Assembly (NCBI GenBank): GCA_963971425.1
Contig: OZ020514.1
Location: forward strand, 20,247,406 to 20,311,405
Origin: Bryoerythrophyllum caledonicum
Lineage: Eukaryota > Streptophyta > Bryopsida > Pottiales > Pottiaceae
Length of the DNA: 64,000 bases
Direction: 5' to 3'
In this document: positions 5,049-55,344 of the stretch, one piece after another
Position numbering within the stretch: the stretch's first letter is position 1
How the letters are laid out: each line of letters begins with the position of its first letter
Made by a program: the position numbers and the translations under genes
The notes under the pieces: model-generated
Database searches by the model: none
The model's input: only the letters and a program-made list of their open reading frames with translations
Told to the model about the DNA's origin: nothing

Positions 5049-5077
5049 AACACCATATTCGTTATATTGGGAGATTT
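5049..5077 (+). repeat. Left terminal inverted repeat of element G
   Basis: 29 bp beginning AACACCATATT, continuing through TTATATTGGGAG to GATTT. It matches the reverse complement of 37,243-37,271 at 28 of 29 positions; the one difference is C versus T at the twelfth base. Confidence 0.9.
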
Positions 5078-5195
5078 AGCAACACCCAAATTAACACATG
5101 TTGATCATAAGAGCTAAAGTGCACATCTGAACTCTACAATATGGAGGGATATGAGACATATCGATAGAAAAGGAAAGTCCATTTTTCTAAGTCTA

Positions 5196-7959
5196 TTACG
5201 AATCGGACCTCGCAAGTGCTTCCAAGGACGCCTTGATAATTGCTACTTGTCCCATCGGAATTTTTCTAGTTGAATCTTGCACATGACCTCCATCCCTCTT
5301 TGAAGACCTAGGTTTCCATGCTGTCAAGATTGAATCGGTACTCTCCCACGTTATGGCTATCCCCTTTTCAATTGTCCAACGAAGGTTGCAATCAGTATCC
5401 CAATCTTTATAGAACTTCAGAACATCCCGATCGCGCGATATAGGGCGGTAGAATTGGATACGCACGGTGTTTGGCATATCCGGGTTAGAATTAGGATCTG
5501 AAACTGCTTGAGCAATCCAAAATGGGCGCTCGTCCCCATCAGAAGGCCGCAATGCAACAAAATAGCCAGCAAAAAGATCACAACCAACTCTAAAAGAAGG
5601 AGGTGGACGATCGCGTCTCTCGCCAACAAAATGCTCATCTTCACGGTACTCCTCGCGAACCTCACCCTCCGCTGAGAACTCATCTTCAATGGCATGGGCA
5701 ATTCGCGTCGTTGGCCAAAAGCCGTCTTCCAATGATATCGGCGTATCCATTGGAATTATCAAGGCATCTCTAACATCGCGCCAATAATACCATAGCGGCT
5801 CAAAACGTGATCTGGCTTCAACAGACTCCCGCGATGATTGCTCCCAGTGATCGATGAATCCTGAAAGTCCCTTCACCACCTCATGAAGATGCCGCATCAT
5901 AGAAGGCTTCAATGCATCAGGTTCTCCGCGAGGCCATAAAGATCTTCCTTCAAAATCCTCCTTCCACAATTTGATGCCACTACCTTCTCCTCTCTTAGGA
6001 AGCCAATCCTCATCATGACAAAGGATTTTATACTTCATTACCGGACAACCACGAGAGTCCACATAAAACTTGAGCCGATGAGCCTTCGTATGACCCTGCA
6101 AAGTTTCATCACCGTCCGCAATCATATCTCCAATGAACTTCTTAAAGTTAGGAACCCCTTGGATGAGATGTGGGATTGTGGGAACACTCTCATTTTTCAG
6201 AAACGACCTCATGAGCAAAGGAATGGTTGGAAAACTCTCCTTCCTCAGTGTCATACTCCAACGTCCAAATAATGCATCTATATCATCATGTGTGTGACCA
6301 ACTAGCATGGAATTAACATATACCTCGCGGAAGATGCGTTTTGCAACAAGGAGAGACCAAAAACAGAAAACAAATCTATTTTTGTTATCACCAACTTTAT
6401 TGTCCATTTGCACGTTCAATATTGGAGGCAAAGGCCTCCCTGGAACAGGGATATCTAGAATCTGCCCTAATGGATCCAAACACATCTTTGCACCCCGTAA
6501 TACAGCCGCATACAATGGAGTTTTGCGAACGACCCGACCACGTAGTTGGCATCATGGGAGTATAAATCAAGGCCGTAATGGGCATAACGCTGGTCCACAT
6601 GACCATGGGCAAGCATGCCTGTGATTGCAAGAGGCAACTTCATAAGCCCATCTAAGTGTTTTGTTTTATGTGAAAAAACCGGGGAGGCGGTCTTTGAGTG
6701 ATCCATCTTATCATGCATGATGGTAAGAACCTCCTGGGGCGACGACTTTGATCGAAATCAGTTCAGGTAGTACAAGTCCCGATGTGCGAAAGCAGAATTG
6801 ATGTGAGCCTGCATCTTCTTTTGCCATAGCAGAGATGCTTGTGTTCCAGGTTGAGTAAGCTTCTTCTGATCCTGGTGTTTGTCACACGTAGAACAACGGG
6901 CAAAGTTGTCTCCACCTTTCTTGGCATAGTACTGAGGGAAGCTCACTCGCCGAATCTTAATCAAGCTTGAGGTTGAGATTGGTGGCAATCCACAATCAGC
7001 GAGATGATCATCAAGAAGCGGAATCTGATCCTTCAACTTAAAACTTGCAGGAAGGACCTTTGCCACAACCTTCTCGCTAAATGGGAGAACACGAGACTTG
7101 TGAGGCATGTGGTCCGCATGTCTATCGAGGATGGCTCCAAGAGCGGCAGTAGCCACAACCGTATGACCTCTAGGCTTACGCAAACCGGTATTCCCATGGT
7201 GTTGAGCCGCATGACCAGCCGCAGCGTCCTTTGTATTTCGATAGAAAGTACTCGAACTTAGACCCATGATTTTCATCTAGGCATGGGCACAAACGTCCAC
7301 ACCCTCTAGGGTCACAACCTTTCTACCCGAAGAGTTTCTATGAAACTGTCTATGAACGTCGAGTTTGATATGATTTCTAAACTGCACAATGGTCTCACTA
7401 TACAAGCGCGTCTGAAGGACTTTTATTTTAACTCTAGGGTAGTGTTGAACACAGTTTTGACTGCAACAACTATTGCTCGCAACTGCGTTAATGGAAAGAG
7501 GGGTCATGAGGAATTCAACATTCCTGGACACTGTTGGACGTGTATTCCTTGAGGAATTGTCGTACAAACAAGAGCTCCCTCCTAGAGGTTTGTTACGCTC
7601 AACCAACCAGACATTGTAAACGTCCCTAAGGCAATGATGGAAGAGACTCACACCGTTTAAAAAGACTTGTTGAATTGGCCAGGACTTAAACGAGTAACTC
7701 CATTCATCAGGAGCTTCGTCTTGAACAAAAGTATTGGATACCTGTACTACAACATTCGAATCCTCAAGAGGACCAGAGGAACCTAGAATTGCACTAGACC
7801 GGACATTGCGAACCAACCCCTCCGCAACGCCAACACCCGAACCATTGTGAAGCGAAATAGTCATCCCGACCCAGAGACGGCGAGGAATAACATCTACTCA
7901 AGAAGGTCTGGGTTCACGGGAGCGTCAACATGAACATCGTCGCCCTCCGAAGACGACAT
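5196..7959 (-). pseudogene. DUF7869-type protein, transposase-like (broken)
   Basis: One long minus-strand coding region. Likely start ATG at 7,957-7,959 (MSSSEGDDVHVDAP). Next comes a Cys-rich segment NSCCSQNCVQHY (about 7,450), then VDVCAHA, then GDNFARCSTCDKHQDQKK (about 6,870). The conserved core LNVQMDNKVGDNKNRFV...VNSMLVGHTHDDIDALFGRW lies near 6,400-6,250. The D...N...GHTHDDID pattern is the hallmark of the DUF7869 family, whose fold resembles RNase-H-like transposases; a mobility role is inference. In-frame stops lie at 7,277 (TAG) and 6,758 (TGA), and a frameshift near 6,520 joins the middle to the intact 439-codon C-terminal frame. It lies just inside the left end of element G, so it may encode the enzyme that moved G. 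Confidence 0.7.
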
Positions 7960-8365
7960 CCTACATTCCAATGAGATAAATATTAAATAACCCTGCCAAA
8001 TAAGAATGGGTAAATACCTTGTAGGAATAGACATCAATGAAGAAGCATATGAAGAGGGTAATTAAGCTCGAATCGAGGTAAGGTTTGGCGCTTGAAAATA
8101 ACTATGATTCAAGTGAATTGACATTGTAGAACAAGCAAATTTAGCTTGACTCGAGGTAAACACATGCGGTATTTTATGACAAAAATAAAATTTCATGCGA
8201 TTAGTTTTAATCCAAATATGAAATTATCTCACCCTTGACAGTGACAATTTAGCCCGGCCCAACTTGAAATGCTGACTATTAAATAGTATGACCATTTATC
8301 TCGAGTCGAGGTAAACAGACATAGAAAATAAGGTATGACAATTTAGCTCGAGTCGAGCAAAAGTG
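7960..8365. promoter_or_regulatory. Upstream region with TTTAGCTCGAGTCGAG half-palindromes
   Basis: Several degenerate copies of the element-G motif (AAGCTCGAATCGAGGTAAG near 8,066; AGCTTGACTCGAGGTAAAC near 8,143; TTATCTCGAGTCGAGGTAAAC near 8,296; TTTAGCTCGAGTCGAGC near 8,343). They lie 100-400 bp upstream of the DUF7869-type gene start. The position suggests a promoter or transposase-binding role; this is inference. Confidence 0.45.
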
Positions 8366-10470: not shown

Positions 10471-10607
10471 CACTTTGTGCAATGAACTAAATGAAGTGTC
10501 CGCACACACTTTAGCTCCAGTAGTGCTAACGTGTGCCTCATCACTAGGTGCAGTGAACTAAAAAGAAAATATGCACAGTTTAGCTCTACTAGAGCTAAAT
10601 TGTTTAC
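10471..10607. repeat. Degenerate G-motif palindromes
   Basis: Two diverged copies of the element-G palindrome (CACTTTAGCTCCAGTAGTGC near 10,507 and CAGTTTAGCTCTACTAGAGC near 10,576), with CACC/CATCACT spacers that also recur at 12,660 and 14,340. The gypsy-1 LTR inserted directly after the second copy. Confidence 0.6.
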
Positions 10608-12659
10608 TGTGAGCTGCAAAAACGGCTCATGGTGACGAATGGACCACGCATTGTGTCTATTAAGGATAACAAAGTAGTGGAAATGGGTTATCCTATTGAT
10701 TAGTTCATGGTTTTTGATCAAGATGGCTAAATAGCCTTTCCATGCGCTAATTATTTAATTAGGAGCCACATTGTGGCAACCAAGAATTTTATGAAGTTAA
10801 CCAAAAAATAAATAGAAAGGAAAAAATGAGAAAAGGTAGAAAAACAAAAACAATAGAAAAGAAGTGGAAATAGAAGTGGTGGAGAAGAATTTACCTCCTA
10901 CGAAGTCATGGACCACAATTGGCCACGATGAGGAAATCACGGGAGAAAAATTAGGAGAAGAGGAAGAATGATGGTGAGGAGAAGGTAAAAAGAAGGAGGC
11001 TTAAAAAGCCCTTAAAAATGTAGTTAAAAAGGTCCAAAAGGCTTGGGCAAACCCCTCACCAATCACTAAGTAAAATTAGGAATTACCCCAAGCAAGGGGA
11101 ATTCAATCTAGGTAGAGTAATTAGATTTAGCATCCTTGGAATTTGCTTAATAGCTCACTTATTGGAGATCATGCGCACCCCATGAAGTTAAAGTTGAGAT
11201 TTAGATATTCCTTGGTTAGTGGGACACCCACTTTTGTTAAATGCAAGGGTGGCACGGAAATAAGTAGTCATAGGTTAATAGTTTTTTTAAGAAGAAAGTC
11301 ATTAATGGAAGAAGGCAAAGGCGGTGGGGAACATCCTTGGGAACGCAAGGAGAGCAAGGCTTGGGGGGTTACCCCCTGGAGAAGCTCATTCGGTAGTGTG
11401 CAAGGAATGTGGGGAGAGTAAGGAATGTGGGGAGAGCACGGAATGTGAGAGAGAGACTGGGAAATAGAAAGAGAGCCGGAAGCCCCGGCCACGACAGGCA
11501 ATGAATTAGGTTAGGAACAAGGGCGGTAGTTGGAGCAAGCACAAAGATCACAAGAACACGAAGATCAAGAGCTGGAGCATAAGGGCGGTAGCTGGAGCAA
11601 GCACGAAGATCACCAGAACACGAGGATCAAGAGTTGGAGACGAAGATCAAGAGCTGGAGCACAAGGACGGTAGCTGGAGCAAGCACGAAGATCACAAGAA
11701 CACGAAGATCAAGAGCTAGAGCACAAGGGCCGTAGCTGGAGCAAGCACGAAGATCACAAGAACACGAAGATCAAGAGAGCACGAAGTCAAGAGCTAGAGA
11801 CGAAGATCAAGAGCTGGAGCACAAGCACGACGACCAAGGACAGAGGGTGAACCGAACTGAATCAAGGAGCCTCTCCTCTCCCTCGGACTAGTAATCAATT
11901 CCTTGTGCATGAAAGGAACCCTAATTTTCTAAATACAAAAATCACGCGGAAGCGCTGCCAATTTTTTACTAGGATTAGGGTTTGCTATATGTTCAACCAA
12001 ACAATCGGTTTAATTGTCATTAGTAAGTGAACGCAGCTGGAGGCTTATGCATGGTGTAAGGTTTGAATAGGATTACTTGTGTGAATGTATGTGGTGTACA
12101 CGTGAATGTGTGGTGCATGATCTTGAATAAACGCATATGTTAAGTGTGCACTGCTGGTCGTTGGATGTGAATCCAGGATTGAGTCAAACGGTTAATTGAA
12201 GGCTGCAATCGTGTTAAGCAAGAAAAACTAATAAGAATACTAAAAATAAACATAGAAAACGGAGTTATAACCACGAAGATAATGAAGAATTAAACTTTGG
12301 GTATAATAAGAAGTAGCCTGTCTGCTGGCCACTGCTGTCAGGGTCGCACATAAGTCTGGAATTGGTTGTTGAGGCTCTAATCACGTTCACAAGGTGGATT
12401 TGAACCTATCTAAGCTTTAAAACGTTGAAAACGGAGCTTTGAGGTGGAACTTATGCTTGTTTAAAAGTTGGGTTTAATTTAAGGCTGAATCTAGCCATCA
12501 CAACACTAATCATTAACGGACCTTCTTGAGTGACCACACCTTGGGTCACCGTGCTTGTATGAATGGTTGAAGGATGTTTGAACAAGGGGCTGCATCCCAC
12601 ACTTAGGGTCTTGTGTTCAAGATAAGCCACCTGTTAGGGGGTGGTTTATTTGGCTCACA
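10608..12659 (+). repeat. Solo gypsy-1 LTR
   Basis: Starts TGTGAGCTGCAAAAACGGCT and ends GGCTCACA, 2.05 kb, similar end to end to the gypsy-1 LTR at 47,964-50,200. It includes a diverged internal tandem array (GAAGATCAAGAGCTGGAGC units, about 11,535-11,845). No gypsy coding sequence lies on either side, and the flanks are element-G palindrome sequence. A clean 5-bp duplication was not resolved. It inserted after element G acquired its palindromes. Confidence 0.8.
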
Positions 12660-14239: not shown

Positions 14240-14299
14240 TAACTATTGTATTTGTACCGTTACAATAAAAGCAAAATGAAGTGAAAATGAAGTGAAAAG

Positions 14300-14425
14300 T
14301 AAAGAAAAAATTCACACTTTAGCTCTATTAGAGCTAAAGTGTGCACCATCAGTAAATGTAGGGAACTAAAAAGAAAATATGCACACTTTAGCTCCAATAG
14401 AGCTACAGTGTGCACCGGCCTTTAT
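14300..14425. repeat. G-motif palindrome pair
   Basis: Two copies of a diverged form, CACTTTAGCTCTATTAGAGC and CACTTTAGCTCCAATAGAGC, each continuing into CTAAAGTGTGCACC or a near match. The arms pair with each other, so each copy can form a hairpin. Confidence 0.75.
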
Positions 14426-16216: not shown

Positions 16217-16562
16217 ACACAGTTTAGCTCGAGTCGAGCTAAAGTGGGACATCGATATTGCACTATTGTCCACACATTAGCTCGAGTCGAGCTAAAGTGG
16301 GCCTCCACTGTGCACATTTGGCCACACTTTAGCTCGAGTCGAACTAAAGTGCGCTCTCCAGTGTGCTCTTTTGGCTGCACTTTAACTCGACTCGAGATAA
16401 AGTGTGACCAATTAAGCACACTGGAGGGCGCACTTTGGCGCGACTCCAACTTAAGTGTGGTCAAATGTGCATAGTAAAGGCCCACTCTAGCTCGACTCGA
16501 GGTAAAGTGTGGAGAATAATGGACTATCGAGGCCACACTAAAGCTCGACTCGAGCTAAAATG
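16217..16562. repeat. Long imperfect hairpin built from G palindromes
   Basis: About eight G-motif palindromes spaced about 50 bp apart. The whole block is a larger inverted repeat centred near 16,390: the sequence between palindromes on the left (GGACATCGATATTGCAC, TGGGCCTCCACTGTGCAC, GCGCTCTCCAGTGTGCTC) recurs reverse-complemented in mirror order on the right (GAGCACACTGGAG-like, GTGCATAGTAAAGGCCCAC, AATGGACTATCGAGGCC). Arms are about 160 nt. A transcript through it would fold into a long hairpin with many nested small hairpins, a plausible source of small RNAs. It lies upstream of the multi-exon gene start at 17,467. Confidence 0.8.
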
Positions 16563-16800
16563 TATGACTAAATACGTCTTTGGTTGTGCTAAAGCCGGCT
16601 CCGGGAAAAGTAATCAGATTATCTTCTCTCAAACTCAGGGTCTGAAAAAATATCATGGCCTTTTAGTAAAGCCAACACACTTTACCTCGAATTGAGCTAA
16701 AGTGTAAAACAATGAACTTAAACAACAACTCAAACACAACTACATTCGGACTTAAAACATTCCAAAAGTAAAGTTTACCAATGATATCTATGACTTAACT

Positions 16801-16951
16801 CATGTCAACTTCTCCTTCACCTTTCATAAGTGTGCATGAGCTTCAGTCCCGCTCCAACCACTTGAGAACCTTGAAGAGTGAAGTTCGTGAGTGATTGGAT
16901 CGGTTCGTAAGCTTTTCCACAGTTTTGAGAGTTGAACGAGAAGTAGCCATG
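16801..16951. repeat. Fold-back repeat unit, copy 1
   Basis: About 150 bp with inverted ends: CATGTCAACTTCTCCTTCAC on the left and GTTGAACGAGAAGTAGCCATG-like sequence on the right. It is nearly identical in order and content to copy 2 at 17,120-17,271, sharing GCATGAGCTTCAGTCCCGCT and CAACCACTTGAGAACCT. It could be a tiny MITE or a structured RNA element in the leader of the downstream gene. Confidence 0.7.
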
Positions 16952-17034
16952 AATTGAATAAAAAAGTCTAGGAAAGTCGTCCGAATGAATATTGTAAGTG
17001 TCAGAACTGTTCAGTTTTGCATTCTATGTATAAG

Positions 17035-17060
17035 CACTTTAGCTCGAGTCGAGCTAAAGA
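17035..17060. repeat. G-motif palindrome between fold-back units
   Basis: CACTTTAGCTCGAGTCGAGC followed by TAAAG, a near-perfect palindrome with 1-nt centre. A further copy follows at about 17,350-17,378, and others at 8,340, 16,6xx, 18,9xx and 34 kb. Confidence 0.8.
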
Positions 17061-17119
17061 TGAAGCTAAAGCTTGACGACAACAATGTTACAGACGTGTA
17101 ATAGTCTAGTTTCTCAACT

Positions 17120-17271
17120 CATGTCTACTTTTCGTTCACCTCTCATAAATCGTGCATGAGCTTCAGTCCCGCTCCAACCACTTGAGAACCTCAAAGAGTA
17201 ATGTTTGTGAGTGACTGGATGAGTTCGTAAGCTTTTCCACCGTTTTGGGAGTTGAACGAGAAGTAGGCATG
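17120..17271. repeat. Fold-back repeat unit, copy 2
   Basis: Second copy of the 150-bp unit at 16,801, about 85 percent similar by eye, with the same inverted ends (CATGTCTACTTTTCGTTCAC left, its complement GAACGAGAAGTAGGCATG right). The two copies are direct repeats about 320 bp apart with a G palindrome between them. Confidence 0.7.
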
Positions 17272-23490: not shown

Positions 23491-23700
23491 CGACGGTATA
23501 TTAAAACATTGCAACACTTAACATTTTGATATGTAAAACATCTCATAAAAATCCACTAAATATACATGATGCCACTTAGTTTACAAGGTTTTATTAAATA
23601 TACAAAATATCGCTCAATATTAATTGGCAGTTACAAAATTGTAGAAAACTTTTGTTTCAAAATGTTTCAACATTGCTCTATGTACATTTCTAGCACTATT
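23491..23700. other. AT-rich spacer
   Basis: Short AT-rich interval between the GC array and the end of F1. Nothing recognised. Confidence 0.4.
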
Positions 23701-23706
23701 GTAGTT

Positions 23707-24635: not shown

Positions 24636-24669
24636 GGTGACGAGGTAGAGGAATTTGAAGCTGGCGAAA

Positions 24670-24775
24670 TACAAAGGTGTCAATAGACACCGTAAAAAAC
24701 TTCCCAAAAGTGCCAAGCAAGCAACCGCCACGTGGCAGTTGCAGGCCAAAGCGCCTAGGAAGTGGGGTCCGTAAC
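24670..24775 (-). promoter_or_regulatory. Upstream block shared by F1 and F2
   Basis: Contains the short palindrome GGTGTCAATAGACACC (about 24,676), then CTTCCCA..., CCGCCACGTGGCAGTTGC, GGCCAAAGCGCCT and GGAAGTGGG. The same string order occurs upstream of F2 (26,900-27,022). CACGTG is a plant G-box core. Its constancy against diverged surroundings suggests a promoter. Confidence 0.65.
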
Positions 24776-24814
24776 TTTGAATTCCAATATTTATAGTAAA
24801 TTAGTGACCTATGG

Positions 24815-25005
24815 CGGGCGCATACGACCAAGAGGTGCGCGTACGCGAGAGGGCTGGGCGCGTGTGCGAGAAGGCTGCGCGAGTACGCTGGAGAGCTACG
24901 CGCGTACGCCAAAGGGCTATGTGCATACGCCGGAGGGCTACGCGTGTACGCCAGAGGGCTGCGCGCGTACGCTGAAGGGCTGAGCGCGTAAGCGAGAGGG
25001 GTGTG
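24815..25005 (+). promoter_or_regulatory. GC-rich array upstream of F1
   Basis: Ten or so units of the type GGGCTGCGCGCGTACGC / AGAGGGCTACGCGCGTACGC, beginning about 180 bp upstream of the F1 ATG. Confidence 0.75.
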
Positions 25006-25009
25006 CCTT

Positions 25010-25225
25010 GAACTTGTGCCTTGAACTTGACATACAATACTCATATTTACTTATATCCTTGTGCCTTGAACTTGACATACAATACTTATACTTACTTATA
25101 ACCAATGACCTTTAACTTATACTTTCTTATACAATACTTATACTTATACATACAATACTTAATATTTATACTTACTTATACAATACTTATACTTACTTAG
25201 GCACACAATACTTATACTTACTCAA
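25010..25225 (+). repeat. AT-rich array (ACAATACTTATACTTACTTAT)
   Basis: Starts with two copies of GTGCCTTGAACTTGACATAC, then many copies of ACAATACTTATACTTACTT-like units. Simple tandem sequence without coding potential. Confidence 0.75.
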
Positions 25226-25910
25226 TGATTTTTTTGGAAGAGTTAGTACCTTCAATTAGCATGCTCAATGATTTGTTCGCAAACTTATACTCATATTAAG
25301 ATATAATATGGATAATTTGTATGGTAGAATGCCATCTCTTAACATTTGGAAGGCCGTTGCAATTAGTTACATATAATTCAACCAAGAATTATAATGTTGC
25401 ATTAATATTGGGGATTTTGTTACCTCCCAAATCATTTATTATGCAAGAAAGTAACATGATTTTTATTGTTTAGTCTTATGATTGACATGTTTGAGACAAA
25501 AATTTAAGTTTTATTCTTCAAGACATGATATAAATTCCACTACAAAAAAATTCTCGATGATACTATAGACTATTGTAGTCGGTTATCAAATATTAGACAA
25601 AAGTGAATTTAATTTATTGACTGGGGTGCATGAAGTTGTACAATCATGGAAGATCATAACACATTCATCAAATATATAACTTAAACGTATACAAGACTGT
25701 ATAGAACATTCACTTTATTACATCTAGCCAAATTAAAAAACATGCTGAACCATACAAACTTGATTATCGTCAGAGATAAACAATATTGTTTCGAACTAAA
25801 GCCATTTACAAATGAAGTGCAATTTACAAAATTCACAAGGTCTATGATTTCAAAATGTTACAAAATTGCCAATTTATCATTCATGGCACTACTTCCATTG
25901 CTATCAAATT
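25226..25910. other. AT-rich spacer between F1 and F2
   Basis: No convincing gene. Short open frames here lack family resemblance. Confidence 0.4.
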
Positions 25911-26864
25911 CTACGACTTTAAAGTAAACACCAGCTTCGCGTATTCCTGGATTTGATTGTCATTTTCTTGGAGTACAGCGCATAATTTTTTAAGTTCTTC
26001 TTTGTTGTGGTTAGCTTCTTCTACGAGATTCTTGTTTTCCTGTATACTCTGCTCATATTTAGCAAGAAGTTGAAGATGAGCCTCTCGACCAATTGGAACA
26101 TCATCAGAAGACTCTAGATTTTCATTGATGTTCTCATGGGCAACCGCGTCCATCCTAATTGGACCATTTTCCTTGCCAAAATCTTCTCCAATTGTTGGTG
26201 TTTCTTGGAGGGCAGAATCTAGCCAATGGCATTTAATAAAGCCTTCAATCTCCTTGCGAATAGTTGAGTCACACCCAGTATCCGAGTCGTCACTGGAAGT
26301 GTCATACCACACGACTTCCTCGTTTGGAACTTCAACCTCCTTGGCCTTTTTTCCTAGAGCTTCGCCCGGAAACTTGCGCTCTATTGGTAGTGACGCCGTG
26401 GATACTGGTGTCATCTTGGACTTTGGTTGTATTTCCATCGTCCTCCAATCGACTACTACTCCGAGTATAATCTCAGCATACACCATACGTAAAATGGATA
26501 GATTCACCTCGTTCTGGTGAATCTTTGCCGTATTGTAGATGTGCTCGTACGCTTGGATGCACCGTTCTTTGAATACTTCATTGGTGCAGTAATTTAAATT
26601 ACCCTGGTTGTATTTCCGAGGTTGCGAATATCGCGAATGCGGCCACATTCGTCCCAAATGACACGAGGCAATGTACTTTGCAAACTGTGTAAATGTCCAC
26701 GGACTAGGTACATCTTCCTAGCCTCGAAATGCCTTCAACTCACCATCGATGAATATGTGAATGCGTTTCTTCATCTTGTGGTTGCGTACTCGTCCCGCAT
26801 CACGCTCTCGTTTCTTCATTTTCTTCTCGGAAGCCCGAATCTCAGAAGGTCCACTTGAGTCCAT
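25911..26864 (-). pseudogene. F2: F-family protein, short form
   Basis: Start ATG 26,864 (MDSSGPSEIRASEKKMKKRE). Basic region NHKMKKRIHIFIDGELKAFR, then the conserved module: EDVPSPWTF, YIASCHLG, LNYCTNEVFKERCIQAYEHI, ILRMVYAEIILGVVVDWRT. The acidic linker SSDDSDTGC matches F1. The protein ends in a coiled coil (EQSIQENKNLVEEANHNKEE; CAVLQENDNQIQEYAK). Only one defect is obvious: TAG near 26,718 at the position of the conserved Trp of the GWED motif, and downstream 248 codons are open. It is closest to F1 in sequence and in its upstream block, so the pair looks like a tandem duplication inside hAT-A. Confidence 0.68.
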
Positions 26865-26899
26865 GCTTGAAACTAGCGTGAAAGGGCACCGGGAGTAAA

Positions 26900-27022
26900 A
26901 GGGTGTCAATAGACACCGGAAGTTAAAGGGTGTCAATTGACACCGGGACCCACTTCCCAATAGTATTTAGCAAACAGCCGCCACGTAGCAGTTGCAGGCC
27001 AAAGCGCCTGGGAAGTGGGCCC
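26900..27022 (-). promoter_or_regulatory. Upstream block shared by F2 and F1
   Basis: Holds two short palindromes, GGTGTCAATAGACACCGG and GGTGTCAATTGACACCGG, then CTTCCCA, GCCGCCACGTAGCAGTTGC, GGCCAAAGCGCCT and GGAAGTGGG in the same order as upstream of F1. Confidence 0.65.
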
Positions 27023-27044
27023 ATTGTGCCACGATTCCCAAACT

Positions 27045-27365
27045 TACAGCAAGGCGCGCATGCACCCCACAGGCGCTGCGCGTACGAGATGGGACGATCT
27101 CGTGCGTATCAATCATGGTCTCGAGAGGAGGAACAGAATGGTCGGGCGCGTGTGAATGGGGCCGGGCGCGTGCGCTGTGAGGCCAGGCGCGCGCGAATGG
27201 GGGTCGGGCGCATGCCTTTTGAGGCTGGGCGCGCACTCTTTGGGGCCGGGCGCACGCAAATAGGGGCCTGGCGCGCACAAACAGTGGTAGTGCGCGCTCG
27301 AATGGAGACCGGGCGCATGCGCTCTGAGGCCGGGCGCGTGCGCTGTGGGGCCGGGAGCGCATGAA
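27045..27365 (+). promoter_or_regulatory. GC-rich array upstream of F2
   Basis: About 15 copies of GGGCCGGGCGCGTGCGCTG-like units beginning about 185 bp upstream of the F2 ATG. Open frames across it in several phases are artefacts of the repeat. Confidence 0.8.
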
Positions 27366-27573
27366 CAGGGACCATGGAAAGTTCTCTTCTTGCAAATTGG
27401 ATTATCTTAAATGTTACAAACTAACTTCAATGTTTCAAAGGAGATGCAAGAAATGGGTCAATGCTTTAAAGTCGTCCTTATATTTATATTGCACATGCAA
27501 ATTTTGCAACATACAAAATGGTTACAAATGCTACGCTTTCATCTTGCATTCTATTTGCCTATACTCCACTTCA

Positions 27574-29660
27574 TCACGCATCGGCTCCACTTGGTTCACC
27601 ACTTCGTGAGGCCCCATCATCTAGCAATTTACGAGCCGCTCGCGTCCTCCGGTGAGGCCCATCCGCGTTTACCAGAGCACGTAACATTTCAGAGTTCCGA
27701 AGTGCTTTGAGAGTCTTCATAGTCGCCGGACTATGTTCCTCAAGAAGGAAATCAATAGCTTCCTCCTTCCAAGTTTCCTTCCATTGCGATTCTTCCCATT
27801 ACAACGCATTGCGAAGGTGAAGATCAGTGGCCTCTCCCAATTCTGACACCACACGTCCCTGGTGATTCCACAGTTTTCCATCTAGACGTTGCCCGAATTG
27901 AAATAGCTTCCGCCTAGCATCCCAATATCCACCCATGACTTGGTAGAAGAAGTTTCGTTTACCAACATGGTCCGCGGTGGTTCCCGATATGAGCTTGTTG
28001 GCCACTCGTACAATTTCTTGGTGGTCATTTTCCCAACCAAATTGCGTGCTTATTCTGGACTTATGTAGTTGGTGGCACTGCGCACGCCTATCCCACACCA
28101 AATCTTCTCCCCACTTTTAAGCATAGGCATCCCCAAGCGCATTCTCCGGGTTTAGCTCCCAACTAGGTGGCATGTAGGCGGTGAGGCCAAACACTTCATA
28201 CAAGAGCTTATGAAATGGTGCTCTACACTTTGCGCAAAACCTACATGTCAAGATACCATTGCCATTTGCCTCGCACGGTCAACATTCAAGATGCATGCCA
28301 CCTTCCATTGATAGTGTTGCTCGCTCACTGACCTAATCCTTTCTCAAAGGATGTCGTTTGCACTGCAAAGCTCAACAAGTTCCGTGCTTGGATTGGGTGG
28401 GGAAAACGACAGAGAATCCTCGGTGCCGATGGAATCTACAAATGGCTGCGTTGCTACAGTCGGCGGCGGTAGAAAAACCAATGGACGACTAGCGAAGCGG
28501 TGACGCGGTGGTCTTGTCACGGTCTCTAGCAAGCAGCTAGTAATGTTGCCAATAACATTGGCGATCATTGTCTCGTCCACAGCTCGAGCAACTTTGCCAA
28601 TATCAGCCTGGCTGGCAACACGTTCTCGACGCAACTCTTCTATCTTGGCTGCTTGCTTGGTGATAATATCACCCTTTCCACTGGATTGCAGCTTGAGGTT
28701 TTCAATCTTTTCTTGGAGACGTTGAATCATCTCATCCTTCAAGCTGATAGTGTCCAATAACTCCCGGTGAGCATCGACGGTCGTACTTCCGGACCCTGAT
28801 GCTACATGCCTGGTGTTGGAAGTGGTGACTACGACATTCATCATTGGCATTTCATCCACAACATGGATGGGTTCTTCATCTCCAACACCCTCAAGCCTCG
28901 CGGCGGGTTCATCATCGCCAACAAGATTTACGATTGGTAAATCTACCTGGCCACCTCCTTGAACCAATAGACATCCTGCTTGATGGAGCTTCACTCGTTG
29001 GCGCTTTTTTCGTGACGCACACGCCACTAGAGAAGTCGATGAACGCCAACCTATACGTCCATCTGAGTCCGAATCCGGTGATGAATCTGACTCTATTAGA
29101 GCAACTTCTTCTGGGCCATCCGTTTTCTGTGGCCCTAGTGCCGTAAAAAAAAACACTGGATGTTGCTCCCTAGGCACATCGGCATGCATCCACACCCTCG
29201 GCATTTTTGGAGTTTTCCGCACAGTCTTCCAATCCACTCGCTCATTGAAAACGACCTCCGCATATACCATGCGAGCGAGATAGAGGGGACAATCATTGCG
29301 GGGCATGAATTCGAGCTCGTATAAGTATTGGTGAACTTGGAGGGCACGAGCTCGAAACGCCTCATTGATGCAATACTTCAAATTAGTCTTGTTTGCTCGA
29401 CGATTTATTAAATGACGATGTGGAGTAAACATCTTCGACAGATGGCACCTCGCGATGTAATCCTTGCAAGTGACAGACGACCATGGCGATGGCTCATCTT
29501 GCCAACCCACGAATGCAATATTTGCTGGATTGTTGAACACGTGCATCCGCTTCTTCTGGAGCTTCCCGTGCCTCGCCCTATCTCTTTCATTCTCCCTCTT
29601 CCTCTGCGCGGTGGACATTGGAGGCTGTTGTTGGGCATCCGGCTCACTCTCACTGTCCAT
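27574..29660 (-). pseudogene. F3: F-family protein, long form with RING-like tail
   Basis: Start ATG 29,660 (MDSESEPDAQQQPPMS). Basic region, then the conserved module: KKRMHVFNNPANIAFVGW, DYIARCHLSKMF, LKYCINEAFRARALQ, LARMVYAEVVFNERVDWKT. An acidic linker (SDSSPDSDSDG) and a coiled coil (LKDEMIQRLQEKIENLKLQ) follow to the TGA at 28,344-28,342. The same frame continues past that stop with EQHYQWKVACILNVDRARQ, matching F5. The next segment encodes CRFCAKCRAPFHKLLYEVFG, then GKRNFFYQVMGGYWD, ESQWKETWKEEAIDFLLEEH and GPHRRTRAARKLL, all aligned with the F5 C-terminus. Compared with F5, the first half of the RING and about 100 residues before it are missing. The intact version could be a RING-type ubiquitin ligase; F3 as it stands could not. 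Confidence 0.65.
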
Positions 29661-29924
29661 AGCCGATCATTGTAAAAAAATCTACCAAAATATTCGTTAA
29701 CTACGCTAAGCTCTATCTAAAAAAAACTAACGAAAATTACCACCTTGGATTTCAAAATAATCCAAGGTAGCGATGTTAATTAATTAGAACGGTGATTGAT
29801 GCGGTGATGCAATACGTCGTTTGGATGTGTGCAAATCTGGAGCCCCAATTGAAGATCACGCAATTAGCCACCTTAAAAAGATAGTAGAAGGCCACGATTT
29901 CCAATTGGAGTTTGTGAGATGGGC

Positions 29925-30310
29925 TCGGCGCGCGCGACCATTTATACTAGTGAGCCGGGCGCGCACGCGACATGGAGAACGCGTGCATGCCGTATGGGGA
30001 CCGGGCGCATACGCTGGCTCTCGCGCGTATGATTCGGGGTCTCTGGCGTAGGGTTTGGGGCCTCGGGCGTAGGATCCACGGTCAGGCGCATGGACACTGG
30101 GGCCGGGCGCGAGCGGGAACGGACGGGCGCATGCGGGAACAGGCTCTATTCCTGTGGGAACATGCTCTATTCGTGCGGGAACATGTTCTATTCCTGCGGG
30201 AACAGGTTCTATTTGTACGGAAACAGGTCGGGCGCGTTCGCTAGAGGGGCGGGCGCGTTCGCTGGAGGGCCGGGCGCATGGCGTCTTGGTCAGGCGCATG
30301 CGGACGTGCA
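29925..30310 (+). promoter_or_regulatory. GC-rich array between F3 and the kinase-like gene
   Basis: Units such as GGGCCGGGCGCGAGCG and, at 30,130-30,230, CGGGAACATGCTCTATTC repeats. It starts about 265 bp upstream of F3 and ends about 200 bp upstream of the divergent kinase-like gene, so it sits in a shared intergenic region and could serve both. Confidence 0.75.
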
Positions 30311-30512
30311 TGCGAGGTCAGGGTTTTCCATTTCACTATAAATGGAACAGATTCTAATTTCTATCACATAGGCTCTTCTTAAGTGGCTCCTTGTCCTATT
30401 ACTATTCGTACTTTGCTAGGAACTAAGAAAAGGGCCACCACACATTGAGTTCAGGGGAGGTTTTGATTTTTTTTTTAAAATTCTAGTTTGTGTAGGATTG
30501 TGATTATTGCAA

Positions 30513-32076
30513 TGGCCACTGATCGTAATACTGGAAAGCGGCCCGCATATGTTGATTTAGATGCTCCAGATGCATCGGAGCTTCCACCTACTAGCGTTGC
30601 AGAGTCGAGCCGCAATCCTTCTGATGCACCAAAGGCACCGCGAAGAGGGCGAAGCAAAAAATGTCTGCGCACAAGAAGGATGCCGGTTATCCACCAAAGG
30701 AGTATACCGCATTTCTTGGAGGTGTGGCAATATAATACTACCGTCGATGGTGTGAAACTGACGTGGTGCGATTCCGTCAAGTTTATTTGGAGAAGGGAGA
30801 GCCAGGAATCATGTGCCTACTGGCCGACCTCCAATCAAAATTTGAGCGCGCTCTGGAGAATTTTGAATCGTTCAAGGATGCATATGGCATGTATCACTAT
30901 GTGGCATTCATGGAGAGAGTAATCACTCAATGTATGAGTAATGCATCGCATGTATTCGACTGTGAGGTGAAAAAACCTCGCGGAGGCCAGCATCAACCAC
31001 AAGACTTGGAACTCCACAAGTTCCTTGAAGGTGTGAAGACCACCATCGGCAGGTTTTCAAGCTCTCGTACGAGAGGTATGCCTTGGAATGAACAAGCGAT
31101 GAAGTCAGCCATGGAGGCGCATATGTTGCTTAGCGTGCAATTCCTTCGAGAAGATATTGGAGTTTATGGACTTTCTAGATATGCCGTTGGTGGATACGGA
31201 AAGGTTCGGAAGGTCCGCATCGTGGGTGTGCGAGCCATTTCGGCATACATGGAGTTCGCCGGGAAAATGCCAACGGCGTCTCATCCGAAGGAGAAATTTA
31301 GACAACGGTCTCACGAGGCCATGATATGTCATGTTGCACATCCAGGAGTTATAAAGTTTTGGGCAGTGAATACAAAGAATATGGTGGCGTACACATTGTG
31401 GTGGAATGGTGGTAGCTGGGCCCATTTTAAAACCGCCGATTCAAAGGCAAATCCAGCGGCTTCGAGCAACTCAATCCTTTCAGCTCCATATATTTCGGCG
31501 GAGGATACAACACAAATCTTAGCCTTCCAGAAGAATAGAGCAAGACTTGCCTGGGCTTTGATGTGCACGATGGCCCAAGTCCACAATGACATCGCTCCCA
31601 CAAACGTACTTCTCCACTTTCCTCCAGAGAAACCAGGGTCCGTCTTCATAGGCGTTTGTGATTGGGGAATTGCAAGCCGAGTATCACACAAAGAACCATC
31701 AAAATATGGATTGCGGACAGACACGGAGCTTGACAATCAACGCCGTAGACAACATTGGGTAGCTCCAAAGTTGTTTTACAAATTCGGCCCACAAGATTCG
31801 GAAACGGCATTGGATGTGATGCAGCAGCGACACCAATACACCGAGCTCGCCGATTTGTACTCCGTTGGGTGGATGGCTAGAGCGATTTGGGAGAAAGAAT
31901 CTGACTCAACATTCTTCAAATCAACCGTCAACTACGCAGCTTTTCAAGTGAAGATCGAGAAATTACTGGAGCGAGATCTCCTCAAACGTCCAATACTGTG
32001 CAAAGTGGTTGACGAGCTAATGGCTAAACCTTTCAACCTTGAAGTTCCTGACGCTTGCTTCCGCTATGAGATATAG
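30513..32076 (+). CDS. Protein-kinase-like cargo gene of hAT-A
   Basis: Likely start ATG 30,513 (MATDRNTGKRPAYVDLD). A frame change at the A-run near 30,655 and a TAA near 30,740 separate this N-terminus from the main 437-codon frame (30,763-32,076), so the full gene may be broken even though the catalytic domain is open. Kinase landmarks in order: Gly-rich loop GGYGKV (about 31,190), probable strand-3 Lys in EFAGKM, helix-C Glu in SHEAMICHVAHPGVIKFW, catalytic loop VHNDIAPTNVLLHF (about 31,580; HND in place of HRD), metal-binding CDWGIA (DWG in place of DFG), WVAPKLFY (APE equivalent), and DLYSVGWMA. The key catalytic Asp, Asn and Asp are all present, so activity is possible. About 200 residues before the domain are unrecognised. 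It is the only plus-strand gene of hAT-A. A captured host kinase is one explanation. Confidence 0.75.
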
Positions 32077-32224
32077 AAATTTTGACTTAGCGTATTGATA
32101 GTGAAGGTTTCAATTCTTGATCATTTTGCAATATGTACTAGCATTGTGATGTGACGTTACTTTTTGCCCATCTCCTCATAAATAAAATATTAACATTTTT
32201 CACGACATGAAGCTCATGCATGTT

Positions 32225-32705
32225 AAAAAGTGAGAGAGCGCGCGCGACCCCTGAATTCATAACCTGTACGCGCACGACCCCAAAGGCCTTGCGCCTGGCC
32301 CAGCCCACTCCACGAAGGCGCCCAACCCTCCCCCACGAACGCGCGCAGCCCCTCCACAAACGCGCGCGACCTTGGTCGGACGCACCAGCCCCTCCAAGTA
32401 TGCGCCCGACCCTTCACCGCGCGCGCTCGGCCCCTTGCGGTACGCACGCGGTCCTCCCTGCATGCGCCCGGCCCCTCACGGTACGCGCCCAGTCCACCTC
32501 TGTACGCGCCCGGCCCAACACGGTATGCACCCGGTCCTCCCCTGTATGCGCCCGGCCCCTTCAGTGCGCGCGAGGGTGATCTCCGCACGCGCCTGGCCCC
32601 TTCAGTATGCGCTCGGCCCATCTTCGTACTCGCCTGCCCGCTGCACGCGCTCGCCCTCTTGTCTGCACGCGCGCGACCCTGTTGACAACGTGTCAGCCAC
32701 GTAGT
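32225..32705 (-). repeat. GC-rich array, right subterminal, hAT-A
   Basis: About 20 copies of the hAT-A unit, reading CGCGCCCGGCCCC on the plus strand, so oriented opposite to all other arrays of hAT-A. It lies downstream of the kinase-like gene and near the right end, mirroring the left subterminal array. Confidence 0.85.
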
Positions 32706-32849
32706 CGCCTTCGTGGCAGTGGGTAAGTTGATTTACCTCAAGTCATGGTCAAACCAGGGTTGATCCTTATTAGACGGACATCAGCCTCTACAGGACGGAC
32801 AGCCGGACAGACAGACACTACCGGACGGACGTACGGCCGGACAACCCTG

Positions 32850-32857
32850 CCAACGTC
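32850..32857. repeat. Right 8-bp target duplication of hAT-A
   Basis: CCAACGTC after the element end, paired with TCAACGTC at 19,311-19,318. Confidence 0.85.
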
Positions 32858-35800
32858 GATTCGACTTGGATGCCCTTCGCAAAGTTCAAAGACACCAAGT
32901 CATGGGTATGTGACAAGGATGGGGTCCTGTCGCGAGAGTTCTTTAAGTTTCTCGGCAACTTGACCGAAGCTGAACACGCAAAAATGTCCAAGCACATTCT
33001 CAATCAATCAAAGCCCTCTCGGAAACTGCCCTACCCTTAGGTGGTTATAAAGCAGCCGAATTCCGTGCTAGAGGATTATTACACTGCCCGGGACTGGGTG
33101 GATCGGAGGAAAAAGAAGGACGTCGCTCGAATGGAGTTTCAAGTGATCAAGCCGGAGCTAGCGCTTTTCAATAGCTCTGGAGCGTATAGTCATTCCAACT
33201 CGCGGAAGTTCAAAAAGAACTATAACATGAGTAAGGCGTCAAAGCGTGCCTTCTTGGATTGGGGTCCACCGGATTCATACTACAAAGATTCGAGGCAGAT
33301 GCACTTTCGCAACTGCAAATGTGAAGATTTCTCTCCGTATGCTAAAGAGTTCTTCAGAGTCTTCATCGATGTGCGATCGCGGTTCGTTCCACCTCAGGGA
33401 GCCCTACACTTCCGTTTGTACAAGGCAGCAACGAATTCGCTCGAGACGTGGCCTTCGGATTCGTGGCGCAACCTGGGCTGCAATGTGAAGCTCGGCATCA
33501 TCGACTTTCAGAACATCCCTGGGTTCTTTGGGAAGGCAACGCCGTCATTGGAGAGGCCCTTCTTCGACGACTTCATGACGATGCTCGCATTAAAAGGGCA
33601 GCCTCCCTTCACCGGTCTTCCAGCCTGGCTCTTCATTTGCAAAGACGAGCAATCACACCTTCGAGTGACAGCGTTTGCTGAGGGCCCGTCGTTGTGCCAT
33701 GCGTACGATGTGCTGCAGTCAAAGTATCTTTCCTCCGAGAACGAGCGCTCGGGGGGATTCGCGCCAAAGACCAATAACGCTCTCGACCCGGTTCGCATCA
33801 TCTTTCTCTTCAAGAAGGAGCTTAGGCAAATCTCGGCCGTGAAGAAGACCTACGCAGCTCCAAAGCATGTGCTGTACACCAAGCTGCACAAGTACAACAA
33901 GTTGGCCTACTTCATGAACTTGAACGAGCTATGGATGGAGTTCTTCATCAAGGTCCTGGAGCTATTCTACAAGAGAGGGGAGGCAGTTGTCCAGCTGTTT
34001 GGCGGGACGAAATTACTCATTGCGAGTGTGGTAAGTTTTCTTGCAGTTTAGCTCGAATTGAGCTAAACTATTGATACCCTTTCTGACTCGTGCATAGTTT
34101 CAATGAGGTCATTGCCTATGCTGTTGCGTGACACTTTAGCTCGAGTCGAGCTAAAGTGTCGGCTTTTACTTGTATGATTTTCTAGAAGTCGTCAACTGCG
34201 TTGTAACCTTTCAAGTTGTAATAGCTGAGTTTTCGTACCAGTAACTGTTTGTATTCAGTTTAGCTTGACTTGACCTAAATTGAAACTTGTTCAATCCATT
34301 GGCATTGCAGCTACCATCTCCGTCGGGTACCTCCCCTGTCTCTAGTGGGGGTCAATTGCTTCTTGTTCTCCCATCCCCGTCGACCCGCCCTTCTTCCCTT
34401 CCAAAGTCGCCCGCTCGGGACGTATCTATTGCAGATGTCCCCAGCTCATCGTCAGGTTAGTGTAACGTAGTTGCGAGTGTATAGAGGCAGAACATTTTGT
34501 AAATGTCCAATTTTGTACTCTAGTATTTTTTGTTAATATTACAGTACTCGGCAAGCACTTCAGCTTGACTGAAGCTAAACTGCTTGACATCTAACCACTG
34601 TGACCTGTATCAGTGTCCTATGTGCGCATCCGCTGATAGGGTGAAGTTGTTGAATTGTTTCAGATCTAAGTTTCGGTGATGACGCGATTGCTCACCCACT
34701 CATAGATGAGGTCGTCCAAACTGCAGTCTTAGTCGTAGAAGAGGTCGTCCAAGTTTTGGCCGTGCTTGTAGACGAGATCAATCATAATTCTGCCGTCCTG
34801 GAACCACCTCTTCTTGTCTCAGAACCACGCCCCCAAATGGATGTCGGGCACTTGGGACCCCTTGACAGCATGCAAGGTTCTTTGGAATCGATGGGTGCCC
34901 AAGACGAAATTCTGCAGGACGATGAAGTTCTCGAGGTATTCTTCTAACACTTTTCAAACTCCACTCTTTCCCCATCACGCCTCCCCCCGTTTACCTCTTT
35001 TGTTCTACGTATTGTTGATTCGTCGTTGTTAATGAATCTGTAGTATTATTGGTCGTTCTCTTGGCGTTTTTGAACCAGGTCGGCGAGGCATCAATAAGTG
35101 GTGCTAGTATTCTAGAAGAAACACCTAGAGTCCTATCAGATTTTGAGGGCAGGTGGTTGAATATTGTGTTGGACCTCAATGGGATTCGATGCACGAATGA
35201 GCCTTCGTGGCAGGCCAGAGGATCCTGAAACTCTGACTCGTCCATTCACTCGGCTTCGCAGCCGGCCGAAGTCGGCCCTAAACTACTTCGAGTGCGCCTT
35301 GGTTGAGCTGAATTCCTTACGAAGTTGTCTAAGATTGCCACCATCACGATCTGGAGTTCGATGATGGAATCTACAACACGTCAGATATGTAAATATCTTT
35401 TTCAACATAGTTCTTTGTACCCTCTCAAGATCATTGGTCAGGAGAGTTGCGATAGGGTTCTCAAGCGTAGAGTCGGTAGCAGAACAATCTACATGAAGGA
35501 ATCTGGCACTCAGAAGGACATCTTCTTGAAGACCTTATCGAACCATCTCTTCAATAGGTTGGGTCGTGAGTATACTCTGGCGAATACGCTTGTCATTGAC
35601 AATAGCCCGATTTAGCATATGCTCAATTTGCCGGAGAACGTCCTTCTTCTTCCATCATGGTCGCACAAACATGATGGCGTGAGAAATGATTCTGTACTGC
35701 TGGAGGAATTGCTGCCATATCTCTCTAACCTTCATCAGTTTCCAGGTGGCCTAGCGTAGTACTGGGCCAAACATCCCTCAGGCCGGGAGATGTTCTTTAA

Positions 35801-36992
35801 TAATCAGAAGACATGTGGTCAGTCTGTGAGTATTTGGAACGCAATCCAAGCGTCTCAGAATCTCCGCTCTTAATGCCGTTGGGAACGCTTAGATGCCTAA
35901 TGTACTTTAGGTCGGATAGAACTAAACTGTATTGACTGCAGCTCGATTTTGTAAATTTTGTTGGACCATTTTTTGTATATATATATTTTTATGATAAATG
36001 AAACTAAGATGTTTCACCACTTTGTTTGTTGTGCGGATTGGATACCTACTGCTGATGGAATATCGTTCGATTTTGAATGATTGGAATTTTCATCTATTGT
36101 TCTGAGGTATATGAGCGTTACTCTAGTTGAAATTTCTACAGGACTGTGACTGTCAGGCGTCCGTGGATTCCTTGCTGGGCCCAGAGGAGTTCGCCCTTTT
36201 CCTTCGGAGTAAAGGGCTTTTGTTGCACTCTGCTGCAACCGCGCAGTCAACCATGGATTATTCGACCATGGTAGTGGACGACGGAGTTGTTAAAAGCCCT
36301 ATTGCGGGGGAGCCAATTCATGAATGGAACAACTCACCTTCGCCGTAGTGGCCTCGTTCAATTCCAGGGTCCCTGCGTCAAAATCCGTATAATTGTACTC
36401 CGGCAAAGCGTATTCTCTATGACGGTTTAAGGGATGCTACTTCCCAACGCTCGCTCGCGGTGCGTGTTATGATGACCTCCAAGTTATTGCACTATTGAGA
36501 TGTTTTGGTCTAGATAATTTTGGTTTGTTGTTGAGCTACATTGCACTAATGTAGTTTTGGTTCATTTGAGCTTGTTTTTTTTCGTTGGATGTTAAATGTG
36601 CTCTGTGGATCTTTCCTTCTGCATTTCAGCTCCATTCAACCTAATGTGCACTAGGATGGATCTTATTGATACAATTTTCATGTGTGCTTTGTAGGAGTAT
36701 TCGACCTAAAGTGTATTTCTTTGGATTGTGTGTGGCGCCTATTGTGCAGGAACCATCCGGTAAATGTCTCCGCCCCCGTATTCTCTCAGGAAATGCTGCT
36801 AGAGACAAATGCTCTCCTTCCCCCACCCGCCGACACTCGCTGCTCAAATCAAACAGTAACGAGGTGCGTAGGCGGGGTTTGCAACGTCATCTTGAGAGTC
36901 CATTAATGCAAGAGAATGGTGTAACATGGACTAGGCAACGTCAGAGGGCTATTTTCAAGACGCGAATAGAGGCTTATGGTGGAACTCCATAG
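32858..36992 (+). pseudogene. ParB-like / methyltransferase-like / FCP1-like gene, 3' exons
   Basis: Continuation of the gene at 17,467. Exons: 32,858-34,030; 34,311-34,455; 34,664-34,935; 35,079-35,825; 36,142-36,459; 36,750-36,992, with GT-AG introns and matching phases. The first exon contains FLDWGPPDSYYKDSRQ (about 33,250) and ends VVQLFGGTKLLIAS (about 34,000), recalling motifs DPPY and FGGSGTTLIA of N4/N6 amino DNA methyltransferases, though degraded. Later exons encode LNIVLDLNGIRC, IATITIWSSMMEST, NTLVIDNSPI, and ENVLLLPSWS: the FCP1-type HAD phosphatase pattern, with DLN in place of the catalytic DxD, as in some plant members. The tail is basic. Stops: TAG at 33,038, 35,613, 35,757, 36,346; TGA at 35,226 and 35,304. 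Phosphatase assignment is firm, methyltransferase tentative. Confidence 0.65.
34130..34160. repeat. Perfect 31-bp G palindrome in an intron
   Basis: Two perfect 15-bp arms (GACACTTTAGCTCGA and its complement) around a single G. It lies in the intron 34,031-34,310, which holds further copies at about 34,049-34,072 and 34,256-34,285. The next intron (34,456-34,663) holds a diverged copy, CACTTCAGCTTGACTGAAGC, near 34,556. Confidence 0.9.
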
Positions 36993-37242
36993 ACCATTTG
37001 ATTAGTGATAGGACGATTGTGTATTGCCTCGGGGTGAATGAGTGTTGTTTGTGACTTTTTTCATGAAGTTTTGAATAATGGTACATGCTTCTTTTACCAT
37101 TACCATTTTTTGGGACATTCGGCTAATTTGGTCCATCCATGTAATGAAATATAGTATTCTTGGTGCATTGTCGATATGCTTTGCACCTACAATTGTCTAC
37201 ATATATTGATACTTCAAAGATCATAAATCTTCAAAATCATGG
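36993..37242. other. Right subterminal region of element G
   Basis: AT-rich sequence between the end of the multi-exon gene and the right inverted repeat. No gene seen; it probably contains that gene's 3' untranslated region. Confidence 0.4.
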
Positions 37243-37271
37243 AAATCTCCCAATATAACAAATATGGTGTT
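37243..37271 (-). repeat. Right terminal inverted repeat of element G
   Basis: Reverse complement begins AACACCATATT and matches 5,049-5,077 at 28 of 29 positions. AATG (37,272-37,275) follows as the target duplication. Confidence 0.9.
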
Positions 37272-55322: not shown

Positions 55323-55344
55323 GAGAAGGAGGCCTTTGAAGCAT

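Follow-up and report, generated by a model that had tools for sequence, protein, structure and literature searches.

Sola transposons encode a transposase of the DDE type, VANDAL/MuDR elements combine a 9-bp target duplication with a MULE transposase, and the bacterial ParB/parS system is marked by repeated palindromes, some of them clustered just upstream of a gene. According to the passages of two studies that treat VANC, the anti-silencing proteins of this name in Arabidopsis VANDAL elements recognise short motifs located between genes and within introns, often arranged as tandem repeats; these motifs vary between related VANDAL elements, and VANC induces loss of methylation in its own family (PMC5735166, PMC10398659). 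In fungi, KDZ, Plavaka, hAT7 and IS3EU transposons carry TET/JBP, discussed in the relevant parts of a further study as acting on silencing marks (PMC12730594). Here we describe G, an insertion in a 64-kb stretch of Bryoerythrophyllum caledonicum DNA (contig OZ020514.1) – the window. The best overall explanation of our data, to which we give even chances, is that G is the dead copy of a large two-gene cut-and-paste transposon that would recognise itself by way of palindromes.

Private palindromes of G

G is one DNA-transposon insertion, and a clean one. Its terminal inverted repeats (TIRs) are 29 bp long with one mismatch, and AATG lies flush with both ends as a 4-bp target duplication. A 25-bp probe for the end, allowing up to 3 mismatches, finds exactly two places in the 64 kb, both of them the ends of G, and none in 100 shuffles; the chance expectation for such a 29-bp pair is about 6e-7. 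The left flank (4043-5048) aligns with 49590-50595 at 92.4%, and the right flank (37269-37422) with 50589-50742 at 89.6%, both in a second gypsy copy. Since this copy has the counterparts of both outer flanks side by side, the flanks were themselves neighbours, and the second copy preserves the unoccupied site for G. (The reverse transcriptase of the flank, an open reading frame (ORF) at 4649-5104 on the minus strand, was assigned by eye.) An earlier note on this DNA had proposed just this – inverted repeats and a 4-bp duplication marking a DNA element, the empty site still present, and outer flanks that adjoin in a gypsy region whose second copy is undisturbed – and the repeats, the duplication and the flank alignments bear it out.

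The flush duplication, the empty site, the 100 empty shuffles and the low expectation together rule out a chance origin of the end pair. That the assembly has joined 5 kb and 37 kb as a chimera is extremely improbable: the AATG duplication is flush with the ends, the empty site exists, and gene 2 (below) continues as a single gene beyond a hAT element nested within it. Elsewhere, the G end has no exact match in viral_contigs, and in G001, the assembly to which relatives described below belong, none was found even when 3 mismatches were allowed. The gross length of G is 32,223 bp, swollen by the nested hAT and by a nested solo long terminal repeat (LTR); subtracting the two leaves about 16.6 kb, the net size that the earlier note had also given.

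G also has a palindrome, TTTAGCTCGASTCGAGCTAAA. With up to 4 mismatches it occurs 23 times in the window, and 23 of 23 sites lie inside G proper, which makes up 26% of the window; the nested hAT, the nested LTR, the flanks and the coding exons as drawn contain none. (Tallies for G used boundaries at 12662 and 32853, a few bases past the ends of the nested elements at 12659 and 32849.) The consensus was derived from these 23 sites, their placement playing no part in the choice, and 30 shuffled windows yielded one match in total. Six sites form an array with a 53-bp period upstream of gene 2, four lie upstream of gene 1, six in the modelled introns of gene 2, and the other seven in further non-coding parts of G; the outermost full palindromes stand about 3.0 and 2.7 kb from the ends of G, with one half-site at 5111. 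The palindromes are private to G within the window – a finding new relative to the earlier note – and suggest that G may recognise its own DNA.

Relatives of both genes are accompanied by palindromes of the same kind. A contig with a gene 1 homologue, L008, is filed under the cyanobacterium metagenome-assembled genome (MAG) AVDCRST_MAG81 (G001), and three contigs with gene 2 homologues (L023, L024, L025) belong to the same 4.8-Mb assembly. DUF7869, the domain of gene 1, was found in 1 of the 388 genomes of G001's class, namely G001 itself, and in 0 of 14 control genomes; these counts support the view that the L008 contig is eukaryotic DNA that was misbinned. AVDCRST MAGs derive from soil crust. 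Two further contigs, L013 and L015, filed under Bacteroidetes MAGs, encode distant DUF7869 proteins and are probably misbinned eukaryote DNA as well.

The palindromes number 6 in L008, 8 in L023, 8 in L024 and 5 in L025, and all 27 lie outside coding sequence, which (trimmed by hand) covers 52-66% of the four contigs. Their arms fall into types: the window and L008 have TTTAG, L023 and L024 have TTCAG or ATCAG, and L025 has TTATC or CTATC. Most of the arms are complementary, and the centre CTCGASTCGAG is largely common to all. Counted as the exact core with any middle base, the arms disregarded, there are 11 in the window, 1 in L008, 8 in L023, 6 in L024 and 3 in L025. The L023/L024 type with at most 1 mismatch is confined to those two contigs of the 4.8-Mb assembly; at two mismatches one site on L008's contig and one on C126 join them (1 match to the reversed control). 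The L025 type, at up to 3 mismatches, is found on its own contig only, with 5 sites (2 matches to the reversed control). No palindrome was found in 7 retroelement contigs of G001, identified by Integrase_H2C2 and RVT_2, or in 40 further G001 contigs (the first 20 kb of long ones; mostly bacterial by ORF density); a lone core without matching arms occurs in L048, among those 40, and in L009, a chance locus. Six relatives were screened for inverted repeats accompanied by a 4-bp duplication. Among the best 8 candidates per locus, L023, L024 and L025 gave pairs of palindromes, L015 and L025 a single pair apiece that looks like chance, and L008 and L013 nothing.

The two genes of G

The earlier note had placed a DUF7869-type gene in G, and gene 1 is such a gene: the minus-strand ORF 5196-6551 matches PF25273 at E 4.9e-33, and in the frame upstream the beginning of the domain is weakly recognisable (E 0.01, below the cut-off). 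When contigs of prokaryote genomes were scanned for GHTH[DE]DID, 14 loci came up, three of which are DUF7869-like by tblastn (L008 at E 0, L013 at 2e-8, L015 at 5e-8); the remaining 11 have no DUF7869 match better than E 0.07. L008 is a 4.3-kb contig with an intact, intronless homologue of 947 amino acids (aa). Against it the window copy shows 73% identity, with dN 0.18, dS 1.4 and dN/dS 0.13 (924 of 948 codons), a ratio indicating that the lineage of gene 1 was kept under selection. The window copy itself is damaged, with two in-frame stops inside (one TAG, one TGA), two gaps relative to L008, one of 1 bp and the other of about 67 bp, and an end one codon shorter. A search for gene 1 homologues in plasmids led nowhere.

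Acidic positions common to L008, L013 and the window fall in three blocks ('HDKMD/SDGM', 'MDN..NKN/IDGG' and 'GHTHxDID') that look like a DDE/D triad, as a pattern rather than as a structure. That the DUF7869 protein is a DDE/D transposase cutting at the inverted repeats of G seems to us quite probable. DUF7869 has no function in Pfam, and we found no mention of it in the literature searched; an intact, selected 947-aa homologue together with a sharp-ended element turns it into a testable transposase.

Gene 2 has homologues with open exons on the three G001 contigs L023, L024 and L025, the last truncated by its contig end. By tblastn the part at 17467-18890 matches the three at E 5.3e-67, 9.0e-65 and 9.7e-27, and the part at 32854-34026 at E 1.2e-90, 9.8e-90 and 2.1e-10. 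The order in L024 is an N-terminal region, a ParB-like part, a methyltransferase-like part, an acidic and coiled part, and a NIF phosphatase; the window copy keeps this order for its recognisable parts and is broken by changes of frame and by several TAG codons in frame. The nested hAT interrupts an exon, the two sides of which form a single exon in the homologues, and dN/dS between L023 and L024 is 0.14, 0.12 and 0.25 for three exons. The alignments show gene 2 to be one broken gene, conserved as a single unit. Among its exons aligned to a homologue, 4 of 4 in-frame stops are TAG (not counting a stop past the end of its exon or the parts with a changed frame), which could reflect mutation of methylated CAG or TGG, or some other cause.

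The homologues confirm the earlier claim that ParB-like, methyltransferase-like and FCP1-like parts share one gene. The labels themselves fared unevenly. The FCP1/NIF label stands, with PF03031 at E 2e-12 on window positions 35307-35801 and 2.4e-14 on L024 (47.5 and 53.8 bits against a cut-off of 21.8). ParB has no profile match, and the methyltransferase label has a single weak N6_N4_Mtase match on the homologue L024 (E 0.033) plus a motif-I-like VxSVYAGSK in the relatives. Active NIF/FCP1 members have a DxDxT motif; because the gene 2 part reads DLNG at the expected position, its phosphatase activity is doubtful. Likewise the DPPY of N6/N4 methyltransferases is missing in the window and the relatives, with IIDFQN or IVDFRN at what we take to be the expected catalytic place. 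Comparison of the ParB-like and methyltransferase-like parts with PHROGs, NCBIfam and PDB sequences gave nothing useful, and the two gene 2 parts searched in phages had no relative there. Considering the lack of a ParB profile, the missing methyltransferase motif and the DLNG of the NIF part, the product of gene 2 may be a binding protein, some of whose folds are those of enzymes now dead.

Table 1. Features of G and its surroundings in the window.
Feature	Position	Strand	Basis
Target duplication, left copy (AATG)	5045..5048		flank reading
Left TIR of G, 29 bp	5049..5077	+	repeat comparison and probe search
Gene 1 (one exon, like its L008 homologue), broken; encodes a DUF7869 protein, probable transposase	5196..7962	-	Pfam PF25273 and homologue L008
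Four palindromes 5' of gene 1	8062..8362		motif search
Two palindromes, non-coding G	10510..10599		motif search
Nested solo LTR (TGTGAGC..GGCTCACA), foreign to G	10608..12659		window copies compared
Two palindromes, non-coding G	14318..14407		motif search
Palindrome array, 53-bp period, 6 sites, upstream of gene 2	16218..16563		motif and repeat search
Three further palindromes upstream of gene 2	16681..17376		motif search
Gene 2, 5' part: N-terminal and ParB/DGQHR-like motif (INGQHSFAAS), broken	17467..18890	+	tblastn, alignment, frames
Two palindromes, gene 2 intron	18923..19040		motif search
Gene 2, second exon start, severed by hAT	19121..19318	+	frames, alignment with homologues
Nested 13.5-kb hAT, foreign to G	19319..32849		ends, 8-bp duplication, transposase ORF
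Gene 2, remainder of second exon, methyltransferase-like, without DPPY	32854..34026	+	tblastn, alignment
Four palindromes, gene 2 introns	34047..34579		motif search
Gene 2, NIF/FCP1-like phosphatase region (LDLNG, IDNSP)	35100..35801	+	PF03031 on 35307-35801; 35100-35228 by eye
Gene 2, possible last exon	36645..36992	+	open frame only
Right TIR of G	37243..37271	-	repeat comparison and probe search
Target duplication, right copy (AATG)	37272..37275		flank reading
Empty site in other gypsy copy	50592..50595		flank alignments

Explanations for the palindromes

A critical issue is what the palindromes do. In the mechanism that we propose the DUF7869 protein would cut at the inverted repeats of G, the gene 2 protein would bind the palindromes in 5' regions and introns, and the bound protein would keep the chromatin of G open against host silencing or regulate the genes of G. 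That the palindromes are putative binding sites for a protein of G, most likely that of gene 2, falls in our estimate a little short of even chances; that the purpose would be self-recognition, serving anti-silencing or the element's own gene regulation as VANC does for VANDAL, is an analogy that we offer more tentatively. Several observations weigh against this proposal. Gene 2 has no VANC domain match, and its ParB label, drawn solely from INGQHS(F/V) and its surroundings, finds no support from Pfam, NCBIfam or PHROGs. Two AlphaFold predictions, gene 1 among them, reached a mean pLDDT of only 34 and 32, and among the relatives, whose contigs are 4-7 kb long, there is none with the two genes together on a contig or with ends like those of G. 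Three window sites have a CTCTA..TAGAG or CTCCA..TAGAG core with sides that still match, and the symmetry of the palindromes reaches partly outside the core, both of which also fit a hairpin.

These last points lead to the alternatives. RNA or DNA hairpins – with a role in intron definition, transcription stop or replication, and no protein reading their sequence – would agree with the presence of palindromes between gene 2 exons in all four loci seen, with the changed yet matching cores, and with arms that change jointly while staying complementary. Outside the core, co-variation of the arms is modest: at 3 of 13 offsets fewer than 30 of 1000 shuffles came up to the window sites. L023 taken together with L024 also had 3 such offsets of 13; L008 and L025 (few sites) had none, nor had 16 window sites outside G. 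The core CTCGASTCGAG, however, is largely constant across elements, beyond what a hairpin needs, and many sites lie outside the modelled transcribed parts (16.2-16.6 kb), so that we regard hairpins as an unlikely explanation. The transposase itself might instead be the reader, as in En/Spm, where subterminal repeats are bound by the transposase; gene 2 would then do something else, for instance as a repair or replication helper. L008, with gene 1, no gene 2 on its contig and 6 palindromes, speaks for this, whereas L023, L024 and L025 have gene 2, no gene 1 on their contigs and 21 palindromes; moreover, many sites lie in the introns of gene 2 and the outermost full ones lie kilobases inside the ends of G. 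Binding by the transposase thus also strikes us as fairly unlikely.

Were the palindromes common to introns and intergenic DNA throughout the host and only taken up by G, this would be hard to recognise in a comparison that contained no host gene of the window or of the relatives. Against it, 0 of the 23 sites fall in the other 47 kb of the window (itself apparently mobile DNA), each type is confined to its own contigs in the 4.8-Mb assembly at low mismatch, and the retroelement contigs have none; a host-intron origin of the palindromes is unlikely, and a host-wide motif decidedly improbable. Large DNA viruses carry ParB-, methyltransferase- and phosphatase-like genes, and G is large, as an endogenous virus or virus-derived island would be. 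But only two genes were found in G, gene 2 has introns, the inverted repeats are short and the duplication is of 4 bp; viral_contigs gave no confirmed relative (short-peptide scans of three protein pieces, one peptide pattern, one alignment), and the parts of gene 2 have none in phages. A viral origin is accordingly very improbable.

The private palindromes make it possible to ask directly whether transposons other than MuDR evolve sequence-specific tags that their own proteins read, a question with a bearing on how mobile DNA evades silencing and yet spares its host. Arms that differ between relatives but remain complementary would allow swaps of protein and site.

Neighbouring elements and known systems

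The nested hAT has ends (C/A)AGGGTTGTC, an 8-bp duplication TCAACGTC/CCAACGTC with one mismatch, and a transposase ORF (Dimer_Tnp_hAT, E 1.7e-4). G itself is no hAT, the 8-bp duplication and the hAT transposase occurring only in the nested element. A kinase-like ORF at 30736-32076 (Pkinase E 8e-6, under the cut-off) was rejected as part of G, given its place within the nested hAT. The hAT also has paralogous companion ORFs at 24117-24800, 25911-26717 and 28344-29666; the last matches 55965-56561 (E 1e-28) and 63519-63998 (E 4e-23). A search for a hAT companion ORF in phages found nothing. The two matches in the window fall in a second hAT-like region at 50851-64000, the ends of which were not found. 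It contains two ORFs (53597-54560) with DUF659, a domain of hAT transposases, and pieces of it match the transposase region of the nested hAT.

Both hATs show G's habit of a private motif, with other motifs, a point likewise new relative to the earlier note. GGGCCGGGCGCGYAC, with up to 2 mismatches, occurs 34 times in the window, 34 of 34 in the nested hAT; it is GC-rich, and many copies form repeats with a 21-bp period, some of this type (P2) overlapping open frames. The palindrome GGGCGGAGACGTCTCCGCCC, with up to 4 mismatches, occurs 12 times, 12 of 12 in the second hAT-like region. It is conceivable, if rather doubtful, that the large unrelated DNA transposons here – G and the two hATs – each carry a private non-coding barcode together with a family of companion proteins to read it; the companion in G would be a fusion of ParB-like, dead-methyltransferase-like and NIF parts acting on parS-like palindromes. 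If true, self-recognition of the VANC type would have been invented independently, at least twice.

The window has further features. The solo LTR begins TGTGAGC, as do three further copies in the window, and no clear target duplication was found for it. The interval 10576-14341 was considered as a second inverted-repeat element and rejected, its arms being two of G's palindromes. Within G, degenerate TTTAGGG-like repeats (TTTAGGG being the plant-type telomere repeat) lie at 8991-9100, and an open frame at 8377-8895 (plus strand) resembles, by eye, the end of a pogo/Tigger-type DDE domain, with no Pfam match at E 0.01. Gypsy LTR-like regions at 41884-44203 and 48929-49400 contain arrays of GACGAGCACGATCACGAAGAGCAC-type repeats, very different in length between copies. 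Rfam and tRNA searches found nothing.

How, then, does G compare with what has been described? The literature searched, covered by titles and the starts of abstracts and for subscription papers in part, gave no description of an element like G, and the earlier statement that it has no nameable superfamily stands. Our best guess for its transposase, taken from the 4-bp duplication and the acidic pattern, is a Sola-like DDE enzyme. Sola elements (Sola1, Sola2), like G, have a 4-bp duplication and short inverted repeats, as the passages on Sola2 in PMC3627910 describe; the duplications given there are AWWT or AT-only, as against AATG in G, and these passages have neither a second gene nor palindromes, both of which are present in G (PMC3627910). 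The fungal transposons with TET/JBP are, like G, DNA transposons with an additional gene; in the parts of the study concerned their duplications are 6, 7, 8 and 2-3 bp, against 4 bp in G (PMC12730594), and no TET/JBP was found in G. What the element has in common with ParB/parS is the ParB-like INGQHS of gene 2 and a palindrome present many times over, with a cluster of sites just upstream of that gene; unlike that system it has no ParA that we could find, its ParB homology comes without any profile, and it is a eukaryotic transposon.

For the palindromes, the closest parallel is with VANDAL elements. G does not belong to VANDAL/MuDR, having a 4-bp duplication and DUF7869, and neither DUF1985 nor DUF287, the domains that mark the second protein of the VANDAL/VANC system, gave a Pfam match on the gene 2 pieces or their homologues at E up to 10. 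It differs, too, in its transposase and in the palindromic form of its motif. Nevertheless, as in the VANDAL/VANC system, G has an element-specific motif in non-coding DNA, and, as far as the published passages on VANC go, the two are alike in a second gene beside the transposase, in a tandem array of the motif and in the change of the motif between relatives. At best, gene 2 would work as VANC does, without being a member of that family.

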